Positions 1,071 to 35,471 of a stretch of 64,000 bases of DNA are shown piece by piece. Source of the stretch: Candidatus Cottocaccamicrobium excrementipullorum (GTDB lineage: Bacteria > Bacillota > Clostridia > Lachnospirales > Lachnospiraceae). Location: NCBI GenBank assembly GCA_018713255.1, contig DVFL01000002.1, positions 1-64,000 on the forward strand. Direction: 5' to 3'. Below the pieces are notes generated by a model that worked only from the letters and a program-made list of their open reading frames with translations, was not told where the DNA came from and did not search any database. The translations under genes were made by a program, and so were the position numbers. Each line of letters begins with the position of its first letter. Position 1 is the stretch's first letter.

Positions 1071-1621
1071 TTACTGAATCAATTTTCCGAGTTCATACGC
1101 CTGCCGAATTTCAGGCTTATCTTTAATATCTCCCACGTTCATATTTCCGCCGGCAAGAACATGACCGAGATTTTTCCAGCGCAAATGTTCCTTCAGATGG
1201 TCGTAATAGATAAGTACATCCTCAAAACCATGACCTTCTGCGGCCATCAACAGAGCGGAGGCCCGGTCATGCCCTCTGAGGAAGTTGCCGTCGCTTTCCT
1301 CTAAAGCAAATAGACGATCAAAGGCGGTTCTGATCTGACCGCTCATATTCCAGTAGTAAAGCGGGGTCGCCAACACCACCACATCACATTCCTTTACCGC
1401 TGGATAAATTTGAGCCATATCATCCTTCTGTACACATGGACATTCCCGGCTGCTGTGCCCGCCAAAGCAACCTTTACAGCCGTGGATTTCCATGCTGTCA
1501 AGGAAAAACTACGTTACCGTATTCCCGGCGCTTTCTGCTCCTTCGGTAAATGCTTTTACAAGCATGGAGGTATTGCCTTTTTGCGGGGGCTTCCATTCAG
1601 TATCACAATTCTTTTACCCAT
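1071..1621 (-). pseudogene. Flavodoxin-family NAD(P)H-dependent FMN reductase, disrupted
   Basis: Starting at an ATG at 1621 with a GGAG site, the frame reads MGKRIVILNGSPRKK, the FMN-binding P-loop of NADPH-dependent FMN reductases. A missing G after AAAAAG shifts the frame; the expected continuation (GNTSMLVKAFTEGAESAGNTVT) lies in the other frame. That frame then meets TAG before FFLDSMEIHGCKGC. The rest, 1071-1493, is the intact C-terminal two thirds (CxxC, LATPLYYWNMSG, flavodoxin fold). Two independent lesions make it a clear pseudogene. The ORF-track start at 1493 is an internal ATG. Confidence 0.8.
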
Positions 1622-1714
1622 ATCAAACACTCCATTTCTCTCAAATTTTTTCTGCCAGAGCAGCAGCCTGCTGGCAGCCGCCCACATATTTGATGTTTTT
1701 TGTGAACCAGTCTG

Positions 1715-2448
1715 TTATTTTGTACCCGCCAGCAATTCCTTTTTCAGTTTTGGAACTATAACGCTGAAAAACAGCGCTGCGCTGAAAATCGCTCCAACAG
1801 CGTCCGATATTGTTCCAGCCAAAAAGACGAAAGAAACATCGGCTATAAGCGGTATGGTGAAAATGCAGATCACATAAACAAGTTTTCGGGAAACAGAAAG
1901 AGGAAACGCAAACCGCACTTTTCACATAGCAGTTAACCCATCCACAAGGGCATACTGTACAGCTACACCAATCAGCACCATTGTATACATCCGAAGGCTG
2001 GCAGCAGCCTGATGGTTTAAATTACTATCTTGCAAAAATAGCCCTGCAAATAATTGTGGAAATACCTATACGCCAATCCAAAGAAATCCGATATAGATTC
2101 CGTAAAGCAAGAACACCCCTAAAAATGCCTGATGGATTTTTTTATAATGTCTTGCCCCGTAGTGATAACTGTAAACTGTCCCGCACCCGGACGTAATTCC
2201 CTGGGCCGGACATGAAACAATCGTCATAAAGCTCTGCACTACTGTTGCACATGTAATCAATCCATCGCCCCTGCTGATTCCTCCATATTTCCGAAGTATC
2301 ACATTCAGAAAAATAATAATCAGATTATATTGTAAAGCATATTAAAAAATTGCCCAAACATGGCAGGAATCCCCAGACGAAGAATCAAACTTCGTACAGA
2401 ACTTCCGGCAGTAGTCCCGGATAAGGTCGGCGTACAGTGTCCGGGCAT
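1715..2448 (-). pseudogene. MATE-family efflux transporter, internally deleted and with stop codons (copy A)
   Basis: From an ATG at 2448 the frame reads ...SSVRSLILRLGIPAMFGQ and FFNMLYNI, the N-terminus of a MATE drug/Na+ antiporter. At about 2335 the homology jumps, in another frame, to the C-terminal half (VILRKYGGISRGDGLITCAT, TSGCGTVYSYHYGA). That half runs to 1715 but is broken by an in-frame TAG after GIYIGFLWIGV and a TGA after VDGLTAM. Roughly half of a normal ~450-residue MATE protein is missing. The ORF track shows only disconnected pieces (2066-2302 and 1715-1918). Non-functional. Confidence 0.72.
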
Positions 2449-2560: not shown

Positions 2561-3007
2561 TTACTGCATCATCAGTGATAGTTCAATTTCATCTTCGTCC
2601 GCTGCTCCAGTCTCTGTAAAGCCTCTGCTCTTATACAAATTTAGGGCTTGGATATTATCCCTGTTACAGGTTAAGGTTACTCGATTTGAAGAACCAAAAG
2701 GTTTAGTCTTGATATAATCAAGAACACAATCCAGTGCGCTTTTACCATAGCCCCGTCCCTGATTCGATTCGTCAATCATCATATGCCATATATCATATTC
2801 AGGGATATTATAATCGTAAATCACCATAACATAGCCAACCATAATGTCATCTTCATATATTCCCAAAGGCTGACATTGATCCCTATAAACATAAGCTTGT
2901 GCGAGACTGCGAATCGGATGCGAAACAAAGCGTTCTTGTTCTGGTGCAAGTTTCAGATTAAATGCATCAATAAAGTTTTCCTCTGTAATTTTTCTAAGAT
3001 GAATCAT
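2561..3007 (-). CDS. GNAT-family N-acetyltransferase
   Basis: A 148-residue acetyltransferase. The acetyl-CoA loop is QGRGYGKSAL and the following strand-helix is CNRDNIQALNLYKSRGF, both typical of GNAT motifs A and B. The acidic C-terminus (DEDEIELSLMMQ) and overall layout resemble spermine/spermidine-type acetyltransferases, but the substrate cannot be fixed. I start at the ATG at 3007 (MIHLRKITEEN) because GGAGGAATTT lies directly upstream; the longer ORF start at 3094 has no such site. The gene is intact although it sits between pseudogenes. Confidence 0.8.
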   Translation of the reverse strand: MIHLRKITEENFIDAFNLKLAPEQERFVSHPIRSLAQAYVYRDQCQPLGIYEDDIMVGYVMVIYDYNIPEYDIWHMMIDESNQGRGYGKSALDCVLDYIKTKPFGSSNRVTLTCNRDNIQALNLYKSRGFTETGAADEDEIELSLMMQ

Positions 3008-3096
3008 AAATTCCTCCATAAATTGTTCTGATTTAATCAGTAAGTTGATCTTGTATGAACATCTATAAGGAACGGAGGATTGCATCAAAAACAAAT

Positions 3097-3130
3097 AAAA
3101 AGCCGTGGCTAATTAAACCACGGCAAAAAA
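3097..3130 (-). terminator. Hairpin with U-tract, minus strand
   Basis: GCCGTGG/CCACGGC form a 7-bp stem with a 9-nt loop (3102-3124). On the minus strand the stem is followed by TTTTTAT; on the plus strand by A6. It would stop leftward transcription coming from the Schlafen/Doc ruin before the acetyltransferase gene. Confidence 0.6.
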
Positions 3131-3339
3131 ATCTACAAAATACTATTACAATGCAACCGAGGTCCTCAAAAGATATTCAGATTTTATATTAACCTTGTTA
3201 TTTCTCATAATTGAGCACCTCGCTTTCTATCTGATTTTGCGTAATTATAACATTGAGCATCAATAATGTCAATAACAGCTCACTCATTTGGAATATATAT
3301 TTTATCAAAAGTAACGCAGGCTTACGAGGTACTTGCCAA

Positions 3340-3460
3340 ATGATCCGATTATCCAAAACGCAGATACTTCTGCTCCACGCACAACTCATTACAGAGACCG
3401 GAGGTTCATCTGGCCTGCGCGATGAAAGGATGCTGGACTCTGCACTGAACGCTCCTTTTA
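3340..3460 (+). pseudogene. Doc/Fic death-on-curing toxin, N-terminal fragment
   Basis: The plus strand from ATG 3340 reads MIRLSKTQILLLHAQLITET followed by GGSSGLRDERMLDSALNAPF, the characteristic N-terminus of Doc-type Fic proteins. It ends abruptly at about 3460 where it abuts the reversed Schlafen fragment. The Fic catalytic motif (HPFxDGNKR) is absent, and I see no antitoxin upstream. The surrounding ORF (3253-3489) merely runs through the junction. A dead toxin remnant. Confidence 0.72.
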
Positions 3461-3925
3461 TTTGCGATTCCACATCCCATACTCTATGAATCAATGCATT
3501 TGCAATTGCTTCTCTGAATGCAGCTTCCGGTATTTTTTCTGCCTTTTTCCGATGGGCGCCTTGGATTTCTTCGTATTGATAATAATCTTTGAATACCTCC
3601 AGTGCTTTTTCATATACTGCCAAAATCAGTCTTGATAATTCCAGTACGTCAACCTCTATGTTTGCGGTATCATTTCGTTTGTATGCTTTTGATTTGTATA
3701 AATATGGCTTTTGAAGCCCGCTTTTTACAGTCAGTTTTATCGTTCTGTCATTATTCTGCAATTCCAGTGTGTAATCGGGCTGCGGAGTAATGCTGTCATT
3801 GATTTTGTTCTCAATATCCAGGCATGCTTGTTTTACATCTCTCAGTCCTTTAACATTACCATTGTCATCAATACCAAAAAAATTTCTCCGCCATCGTAAT
3901 TCGAAAAGGCACTTACTGTTTTTAA
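3461..3925 (-). pseudogene. Schlafen/AlbA_2-domain ATP-binding regulator, central fragment with frameshift
   Basis: The minus strand reads LKTVSAFSNYDGGEIF and, in the next frame, FGIDDNGNVKGLRDVKQA, the AlbA_2 motif. It continues through IPEAAFREAIANALIHRVWD, the start of the HATPase_c_4 domain, then stops at the Doc junction. The frame break is in a T7 run (3876-3882) where eight Ts would restore FFGIDD. The N-terminus is replaced by MATE sequence and the C-terminus by reversed Doc sequence. This family is usually annotated as RNA-binding or RecG-like transcriptional regulators. Confidence 0.72.
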
Positions 3926-32859: not shown

Positions 32860-34037
32860 TCACTGTATCTTTGCCGGCGCAGTCAGCCTTTCCGATTTCC
32901 GGCAGCGGCAGACTGCCGTATACCCCATATGAATCAGATAAGGAACCAGAATAGCTGGAATTGCAAGATAAGCAATTAAGCTGTACGCCTTCTGAATCAG
33001 CGTTAACAATCCAAACTGGGCAATGGCAAAATCCACAAGGCAGCAGATAAGGGCAGCCAGAATCTCCTTCTTTGTAATCCTGATCTTTCTCTTTCCTGTC
33101 CCCTCTTCCTGATCCTTACAAATTCGTTTTACCATAGCCGCCACCATATTTACTGCGGTGGATACTGCACCAAGAATAATCAGCAGAGAAATCAACGGTG
33201 TCATAAAGAAAGCGCCAACTCCATTCTGGACCATAAATAAGGTGGGAATACTCTGGCCGGCAGCTTCTGGATTGGCATAAACGGTCATCAGCCCCAATAC
33301 AACCATAACCATCATCAGCCCATTTACGACAAAGCCTGCCGCCATGCTTTTTGCCGCGTCCTGAGGCTTTTCAAAGGATTTTGCATGCTGAACGAACACA
33401 GCAATGTTAGAAAGCTGAAAGGTTCCATACAAGAAGGCTGAATACAAGGCTTCCCGGAAAGGAAGCCGCTGCCTGGTCATACTTTCTGCTGCATCTTTAA
33501 TCTTGGGCAAACCTGCTGCAATGTTGGGAAGATAAACAACCAGCAGTCCAAGAATAATGCAGACGGATAAAACCGATGCTACCTTCCGCACCAAATCTGT
33601 TCCGAAAATGGCTACAATAAAAATAAATATGCCGATCAGCAAAGTACAGAACAAATAAGGAAGACCAGTAAGGGCATTTAATGTGGCTCCTCCCGTAGCA
33701 AAAGCAACTGCCGGAGCGACGCACATCACACAAAGATACAATAGCTCAAACAAATTCGAAAAAACCGGCGCAAACTTCCCATAAAATACATTATTATAGG
33801 TACGGTAATCATATACCTGGTGTTGTCTTGCAAACCAGAGACTATAAGCAAAAAACACGGCGTTATAGGCCATCGCCAGCACCGGCATCAACAAACACCA
33901 GATACCGTAACGCACGTAGTAGCTGTATATCTGGGCTCCTGAAGCAAAACCGCCTCCAAAATGAGTAGTAAACCATACAAAAGCTACACCGAGAAGAATT
34001 CCTCTTGCTCCATTCTGCTTTCCTGTTTTTTATTCAT
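32860..34037 (-). CDS. YkvI-family membrane transporter (apparent frameshift at its start)
   Basis: The membrane protein has about 10 helices. The ORF track begins at an internal GTG (33915), but upstream the same frame encodes GVAFVWFTTHFGGGFASGAQ and IYSYYV, the conserved first helix with the FASG motif of YkvI/APC-like transporters. The natural start is ATG 34037 (overlapping the dehydrogenase stop) with AGGAG upstream; it is out of frame because of an A6 run (34026-34031 complement) where seven As would give MNKKTGKQNGARGILLGVAF. It shares the Trp-type T-box with the preceding gene, so a tryptophan-linked substrate is the best guess. Confidence 0.75.
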
Positions 34038-35130
34038 CCTGTTTTCTCCTTCTGTTCAGTTTTTCCATCGCTTCATTTAGCATTTCTCTTGTTACGCGGT
34101 ATGGATAATGAGCCACATCCGACATCTGGGGAATCCGCTTTGTACACTCTTCCCACTGCTCGCGGGTGATCCCGATTTCTTCTAGGGAAACAGGAAGGTG
34201 CACTGCCCGATTCAGGGAATAAATCCGTTCAAATTCCTGATCCTGATGATCCACTAAAAGAGCAATCAGCACGCCGAAAGCAACCACTTCTCCATGAAGA
34301 TGTTTTTCTTCGATTACCGGATAAACAGTCATGGCATAAAACACAGCATGTGCCAGGCCGCTGTTGTAATCCGGTGTAAAATCTTTCGTCAAAAAGATGG
34401 ATGCAATTCCCGTGGTAACGATAATTGCCAGTACAGCCTGCTCTACCTCATAGGTACAATGGCCGTTTATATGATCATTCAAAGCTTTTTCTCCATATTC
34501 CAGCAAAGGATCCCGGCACATTCTGCTTACTGCAACGCCCAAAGCGGTAAAATGCTCCAGCCTCTCCCCCTTGGAAGAAATCTCCGCTTCGTAATACTTT
34601 GCGTAAGTGTCCCCAAGACCGGCCCACATATATTGGCTGGGCGCCTTGGCAATAATCTCCGTATCAATAAAAGCATGCATCACCGGGCGGACAAAAAAGC
34701 GGGGTTCGAGAAAGGTCCCGTCTTCATTGTACATAATAGAGACTGCTGTGCAGGCAGAACAGTTAGAAGCGATGGTCGGGAAGGCAAATACTGGCTTGTC
34801 ATCGGTGATGCATAAACATTTTACCGTGTCCAAGGCTTTTCCGCCGCCTACTCCAAACACCATATCTGCCTCTTGATACTGGGGAAGCCGGCGCAGCCTT
34901 TCTACTGTTTCATCGGTGCAGTTTTCTCCGTAAATTTCTTTTCCGATAATCGTCAGCCGCGTCTGATCCGTATAAGCCTTTATCTTGTCATAAGCTGCAT
35001 TCAATGCCTTTCTTCCGCCAATAACCAGAACCTTTCTTCCGTAAGATTCACACACTGGACCAATTTTGTCATAAATCTGATCTCCGATAGAATAATTCGG
35101 CAAATGTACTTCATAATTTTCCAGTTTCAT
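34030..35130 (-). CDS. GldA/YbdH-like iron- or zinc-dependent dehydrogenase under T-box control
   Basis: 366 residues: NAD site MVFGVGGGKALDTVKCL, then FPTIASNCSACTAVSIMYNE, ligands Asp (AGLGDTYAKYYEAEIS), His (NSGLAHAVFYAMT) and His (LHGEVVAFGVL). It is clearly different from the GldA at 24292 and closer in feel to the glycerol-dehydrogenase-like group that includes E. coli YbdH/HcxA, which reduces 2-oxo acids. Start ATG 35130 follows GAGAGGAG. Its mRNA begins with a T-box reading UGG, so a role in tryptophan-derived metabolism (for example an indole 2-oxo/hydroxy acid) is an inference worth testing. Confidence 0.8.
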   Translation of the reverse strand: MKLENYEVHLPNYSIGDQIYDKIGPVCESYGRKVLVIGGRKALNAAYDKIKAYTDQTRLTIIGKEIYGENCTDETVERLRRLPQYQEADMVFGVGGGKALDTVKCLCITDDKPVFAFPTIASNCSACTAVSIMYNEDGTFLEPRFFVRPVMHAFIDTEIIAKAPSQYMWAGLGDTYAKYYEAEISSKGERLEHFTALGVAVSRMCRDPLLEYGEKALNDHINGHCTYEVEQAVLAIIVTTGIASIFLTKDFTPDYNSGLAHAVFYAMTVYPVIEEKHLHGEVVAFGVLIALLVDHQDQEFERIYSLNRAVHLPVSLEEIGITREQWEECTKRIPQMSDVAHYPYRVTREMLNEAMEKLNRRRKQDE

Positions 35131-35161
35131 TTTCCTATTCTCCTCTCTCTTTTGTGCAATC

Positions 35162-35436
35162 AAAAAAGCCCTTGTCCCTGAAAACTGCAGGGACAAGAGC
35201 TGTCTAATTTCAACGCTCCTGCGGTGCCACCCGGCTTGATGCACTGCGCATCCACTCGCTGCATACCATCATATGCATTCTTTGATAACGGAGTCTGTTC
35301 TCCGGCTCGTCTACTTACTGTACAGGTTCAACTCGCCCTCAGAAGCCCATTCGCTTCAGGTCAGCCTGCGGCGTTCCACCCTCTGCCGCTCTCTGGGAGG
35401 CATCTGCTGAAGTTACTTGCTCTTCCTCTTTGGTTT
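35162..35436 (-). ncRNA. T-box leader, specifier UGG (tRNA-Trp)
   Basis: The minus strand carries stem I with the AGAGAG element (CCAGAGAGCGG), the GAA-UGG-GCUUCUGAG specifier segment (UGG at 35349-35347) and the antiterminator T-box GGGUGGCACCGC (35232-35221). Then comes a terminator, CUUGUCCCUG...CAGGGACAAGG-GCUUUUUUG (35200-35162). All hallmarks are in the right order and spacing. Reading the specifier after GAA points to tryptophan; I am less sure of the codon than of the T-box itself. It directly precedes the dehydrogenase/YkvI operon. Confidence 0.9.
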
Positions 35437-35442
35437 GTTAAC

Positions 35443-35471
35443 ACTTTACCATCAAAAAGTATAAATGTCAA
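35443..35471 (-). promoter_or_regulatory. Promoter of the T-box operon
   Basis: TTGACA (complement of 35466-35471), 17 bp, TAAAGT (complement of 35443-35448). It is back-to-back with the ABC operon promoter. Confidence 0.75.

Follow-up and report, generated by a model that had tools for sequence, protein, structure and literature searches.

A putative tryptophan-responsive T-box operon pairing a GldA/HcxA-like dehydrogenase with a YkvI-type transporter in Lachnospiraceae and other Clostridia

Introduction

What signal governs a dehydrogenase gene and a transporter gene of two poorly described families, and what could the pair be doing under its control? The question is raised by an operon in the window, by which we mean the whole 64,000-nucleotide stretch analyzed here from the Lachnospiraceae genome of Candidatus Cottocaccamicrobium excrementipullorum, where an earlier note, made from the sequence alone, had read a tryptophan-type T-box ahead of both genes. 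In T-box leaders, charged tRNA leaves a transcription terminator formed and uncharged tRNA stabilizes an antiterminator. The literature that we searched contained no paper joining T-boxes, tryptophan, and glycerol dehydrogenase, and it mentioned YkvI only incidentally; what is new here is the consistent link of both protein families to tryptophan, not the RNA class.

Results

Comparison of the folded leader with Rfam gave a match to the full-length RF00230 model (1-219/219) at positions 35186-35439 of the minus strand, the strand of all window features given below, with 77.8 bits and an E value of 3.8e-17 (Infernal). A gathering-threshold Rfam scan of the window returned nothing, because this score lies under the 93-bit gathering cut-off for RF00230; this genome has 14 T-boxes, and 8 of them score below that value. 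The leader comprises stems I-III and an antiterminator of the tryptophan class, and it displays AGAGAG, GAA-UGG, and GGGUGGCACCGC. Its intrinsic terminator, a strong hairpin placed by fold and sequence at 35162-35199 with a run of six U residues, is mutually exclusive with the antiterminator, and the dehydrogenase gene starts 3' of it, at 35130. Directly upstream of the T-box, we read from the sequence a sigma-70-type promoter, TTGACA-N17-TAAAGT (35443-35471; -35 element at 35471-35466, 17-base spacer, -10 element at 35448-35443), and in the leader alignment the relatives have TTGAC and ATAAAGT in corresponding positions. At the level of sequence, these features confirm that the T-box is real and its RNA a typical example of an established class, so that the complete T-box and the consensus promoter described in the earlier note both stand. 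T-boxes of the tryptophan class in front of trpE or trpXYZ share the architecture of the window leader, including its UGG specifier, UGGC bulge, and terminator/antiterminator pair, but the genes behind the window T-box are those of a GldA/HcxA-like dehydrogenase and a YkvI-type transporter, not genes for biosynthesis, a synthetase, or ABC uptake.

The tRNA specificity of the leader was read from two sites. The specifier loop runs GAA-UGG-G ahead of the CUUC strand of stem I, and the TBDB rule (PMC7778990), which puts the specifier 2-4 bases ahead of the bulge end, identifies it as UGG (35347-35349), followed by the purine G at 35346 and then by CUUC, which pairs with GAAG. When we aligned the window leader with those of homologous loci, UGG was found in 59 of 59 leaders, the next base being G in 45 and A in 14, and the flanking stem varied compatibly (among other pairs, GAAG/CUUC and AAAG/CUUU). 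In the T-box bulge, the sequence is UGGC (35226-35229), which can base-pair with the G-CCA end of tRNA-Trp, and the base after UGG in the bulge is C in 54 of the 59 leaders, the window included. In this genome, tRNA-Trp(CCA) has the matching discriminator G, and among the 13 leaders with a readable base the UGGC bulge occurs only in those of a trpX-like gene, trpE, and the window operon, the same three that carry a UGG specifier; the contig of the window operon also carries this trpX-like gene at another site, behind a UGG T-box of its own. Together, these matches strongly support tryptophan specificity, and hence a leader that would be controlled by uncharged tRNA-Trp, in keeping with the specifier first proposed, and no other codon fits better than UGG. 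A shifted frame is scarcely credible: GAAUGGG does hold both AUG (Met) and GGG (Gly), and T-box specifier frames can be ambiguous (PMC7778990), but GGG is rejected by the A that follows UGG in 14 of 59 leaders, AUG by a bulge C that pairs with the tRNA-Trp discriminator G and not with the A of tRNA-Met (the metG leader of this genome has a UGGU bulge), and either by the association of these leaders with TrpXYZ. Another T-box of this genome, at 1501-1764 (+) of locus L004, precedes a CstA-like transporter gene and has a specifier loop without the usual GAA.

The first gene (34030-35130) encodes a 366-residue metal- and NAD-dependent dehydrogenase, assigned by Pfam PF00465 (Fe-ADH; 69.9 bits against a cut-off of 31.3, E 2.5e-19), by glycerol dehydrogenases in the PDB, and by alignment, which agrees with its earlier description as GldA/YbdH-like. 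The metal ligands and NAD motif (D174, H261, H279, and GGGK) are invariant within the family and, like the fold, are shared with GldA. The best NCBIfam subfamily score, however, is 207.9 bits for glycerol dehydrogenase PRK09423, under the cut-off of 336, and the GldA equivalog NF047954 reaches 156.5 of 700 bits; with the substrate Asp of the GldA active site (ASTDAPCSAL) replaced by Cys (SNCSAC), we rejected an identity with GldA itself. E. coli HcxA (YbdH, hydroxycarboxylate dehydrogenase A) also has Cys at this position, is 32% identical over 338 residues, and shares the motifs ATCAA/SNCSA and GDT-AK--YEA, but the HcxA equivalog PRK10586 gave 161 bits against a cut-off of 429 and was rejected as well. 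Both HcxA and the window operon appear to be turned on when the regulating amino acid is scarce, HcxA as a member of the methionine regulon, where hcxA is tightly repressed by the MetJ protein (PMC3228920), and the window enzyme putatively through tRNA-Trp. We found no HcxA enzymology in the literature searched.

The second gene (32860-34037) encodes a membrane protein that we take to be of the YkvI type (COG3949). No Pfam model (above cut-off) or NCBIfam model matches it, and the YkvI profile found nothing among PDB sequences. An intact homologue from locus L045 was modeled with a LeuT/APC fold (pLDDT 86.7), and Foldseek matched this model to LAT1, BasC, ApcT, and LeuT with query TM-scores of about 0.5-0.67, the first three ranking among the best matches, predicting that YkvI-type proteins are APC/LeuT-fold transporters. 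In the relatives inspected, the transporter frame is uninterrupted (74-81% identical) and its start overlaps the dehydrogenase stop codon; for them, the translational coupling that the earlier note had proposed holds. In the window, the ATG at 34037 likewise overlaps the dehydrogenase stop, but coupling fails because a run of six A residues (34031-34026) carries a one-base shift between the start codon and the body of the gene: reading from the ATG meets a stop after 17 codons, and the body frame offers its first ATG, GTG, or TTG at 33915, some 33 residues past the beginning of the conserved protein. The dehydrogenase is therefore the one gene of the pair whose integrity is certain in this genome.

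This shift raises a real, though minor, possibility that the operon is decaying here, the transporter being a pseudogene and the leader regulating the dehydrogenase only. The dehydrogenase was not found at E < 1e-40 in ten same-genus genomes examined, a pattern that suggests a cassette passing between lineages and makes the operon look recently acquired and possibly dispensable. The remaining 384 transporter codons are, however, open and 81% identical to the L045 homologue, so the shift is either a recent mutation or a homopolymer assembly error. At one related locus (L073), the T-box itself is decayed, lying some 170 bases ahead of the dehydrogenase with only the GCCGGGTG core and the terminator left.

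Scanning 85,462 species genomes for the dehydrogenase, we found 80 loci with enzymes 63-86% identical, the L045 enzyme at 86%, mostly in Lachnospiraceae and other Clostridia; many of the genomes come from chicken gut, and the set takes in Coprococcus comes, Roseburia faecis, and Mediterraneibacter strains. The pairing noted in the window recurs widely: YkvI adjoins the dehydrogenase in 70 of the 80 loci, a TrpXYZ-type importer in 4 (L105, L111, L116, and L122), and neither in 6, and dehydrogenase relatives at 48-55% identity adjoin TrpXYZ in all 8 cases. TrpXYZ, a tryptophan ABC importer (Streptococcus suis TrpX, PMC9382623), is of a class unrelated to YkvI, is likewise under tryptophan T-box control, and has no member in the window operon. 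It takes the place of YkvI beside the dehydrogenase in other species. Our TrpX assignments for these alternative partners are by similarity and below the curated cut-off (for locus L036, NF041285 is the best and only family match, at 260.5 bits against an equivalog cut-off of 390), and we call the proteins TrpX-like. On a tree of the dehydrogenases, the TrpXYZ-paired group branches beside the YkvI-paired group, and three TrpXYZ-paired tips fall inside the latter, so the transporter partner has probably been exchanged more than once, with moderate internal support at these nodes (0.69-0.74).

The T-box accompanies these rearrangements. UGG T-boxes precede TrpXYZ-dehydrogenase operons (L105, L111, and L122), a dehydrogenase-TrpXYZ operon (L037), YkvI-dehydrogenase operons of reversed gene order (L113-L115 and L119), YkvI alone in one genome (L201), and the dehydrogenase alone (L052, L055, L063, and L123), and at L155 and L157 a T-box lies between the dehydrogenase and TrpX; these varied arrangements link each element separately to tryptophan. 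No T-box was detected at the closely related loci L083, L088, and L094. We found no T-box for another amino acid on close homologues; the one exception in the wider family is a Leu-type (CUC) T-box at L211 (1096-1349, +; 130.9 bits), directly before a YkvI relative of 28% identity, and because of it the wider YkvI family need not be tryptophan specific. T-boxes at L208 and L210 were assigned to a neighboring pheS-like gene and not to YkvI.

More distant relatives bear on the substrate class. Class I aminotransferase genes lie next to dehydrogenases of 35-42% identity at L038, L039, and L174, and the L039 aminotransferase is 33% identical to E. coli YbdL, the methionine transaminase whose gene adjoins hcxA; other dehydrogenases in this identity range adjoin branched-chain aminotransferases (L172, L173, and L180) or EtfA (L175). 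On the transporter side, YkvI relatives 39-48% identical (L202-L207) consistently adjoin GlcD-type FAD-dependent 2-hydroxy-acid dehydrogenases, and a relative at 26% identity adjoins EtfA. One transporter family thus lies beside two unrelated dehydrogenase types and one dehydrogenase family beside transaminases, which fits a scheme of 2-hydroxy-acid salvage. These neighbors, which belong to paralogues 35-48% identical, point to 2-hydroxy/2-oxo acids as the substrate class. As a class, the 2-oxo or 2-hydroxy acid substrate proposed in the earlier note gains indirect support from HcxA and from the aminotransferase, GlcD, and Etf neighbors, and indole-3-lactate would be the natural candidate for the tryptophan-controlled branch. 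Dehydrogenase relatives of 35-38% identity stand beside branched-chain aminotransferase or EtfBA genes at six loci (L172, L173, L180, L190, L175, and L177).

Discussion

Since TrpXYZ replaces YkvI beside the same dehydrogenase family and a tryptophan T-box stands before YkvI alone at L201, we infer with good support that the operon belongs to a tryptophan-acquisition regulon and that its transporter imports tryptophan or a tryptophan-related compound, as the earlier note had supposed. In the mechanism that we propose, transcription from the sigma-70-type promoter would enter the tRNA-Trp-specific T-box, and charged tRNA-Trp would leave the terminator formed. Uncharged tRNA-Trp would pair through its CCA anticodon with UGG and through its G-CCA end with the UGGC bulge, stabilizing the antiterminator, and RNA polymerase would then read into the dehydrogenase and YkvI genes. 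The transporter would bring in tryptophan or a related compound, the dehydrogenase would oxidize a tryptophan-related 2-hydroxy acid, with indole-3-lactate as the obvious candidate, to the 2-oxo acid, and a housekeeping aminotransferase would turn this into tryptophan, so that the module would form a salvage route parallel to biosynthesis (trpE and trpA are present) and to TrpXYZ uptake.

Tryptophan salvage by uptake and oxidation of a related 2-hydroxy acid, followed by transamination, is the best-supported hypothesis for the pair, and we give it an even chance. Its enzymatic half, in which the dehydrogenase may oxidize such an acid ahead of transamination, is drawn more tentatively. Counting against salvage, the window operon contains no aminotransferase, its transporter is frameshifted, some relatives (L083, L088, and L094) have no detectable T-box, and in other organisms TrpXYZ importers do their work with no dehydrogenase of this kind.

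A simpler arrangement, which we think rather unlikely, would make YkvI a plain tryptophan permease and have the dehydrogenase act outside the tryptophan skeleton, in redox balance or on a glycerol- or diol-type substrate, the two sharing an operon for historical reasons. The modeled YkvI fold does resemble amino-acid permeases, the top NCBIfam subfamily score of the enzyme is for glycerol dehydrogenase (208 bits of the 336 required), and TrpXYZ alone suffices for tryptophan uptake in other bacteria (PMC9382623). A permease reading, however, sits poorly with a dehydrogenase that is the constant member while the transporter swaps, that stands alone behind the T-box at four loci (L052, L055, L063, and L123), and whose active site has Cys in place of the GldA Asp, as in HcxA.

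Fe-ADH-type enzymes are reversible, and the pair could in principle run backward, reducing indole-pyruvate to indole-lactate for export. Gut bacteria are known to make indole-3-lactate (PMC9330295). Even so, we consider this direction improbable: genes behind a tryptophan T-box come on in response to a shortage of charged tRNA-Trp, a state in which throwing away tryptophan carbon would be counterproductive, and TrpXYZ, the alternative partner, is an importer.

If salvage is the function, the module appears to supplement biosynthesis, because trpA is present in most genomes that carry the dehydrogenase (15 of 17, versus 64 of 98 relatives); with no correlation with tryptophan auxotrophy, we rejected the module as a stand-in for the biosynthetic pathway. 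Tryptophan limitation would provide a defined signal for a dehydrogenase subfamily that is currently grouped, loosely, with the glycerol dehydrogenases, and the same signal would attach to a transporter family for which we found no Pfam or NCBIfam model. The species that share this link number over 50 and include many gut bacteria, Mediterraneibacter strains among them, and the link yields a short list of testable substrates. Were the substrate indole-3-lactate, bacterial amino-acid economy would be tied to a host-active indole. More speculatively, the operon may be a mobile, tRNA-Trp-controlled cassette that lets gut Lachnospiraceae take up the indole-3-lactate of their neighbors and regenerate tryptophan, making its carriers consumers of an aryl-hydrocarbon-receptor ligand and the pair a new class of 2-hydroxy-acid salvage module (dehydrogenase plus YkvI) wired to the amino acid that it regenerates, a tentative picture that we hold possible but doubtful.

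Two further gene arrangements were seen around the dehydrogenase. At L155, the dehydrogenase beside TrpXYZ is immediately preceded by a gene of the L-lactate-dehydrogenase family (2598-3536, +). At L055, L063, and L123, the T-box and dehydrogenase, with no transporter, are followed by a gene for a secreted amidase-like protein of 458-470 residues.
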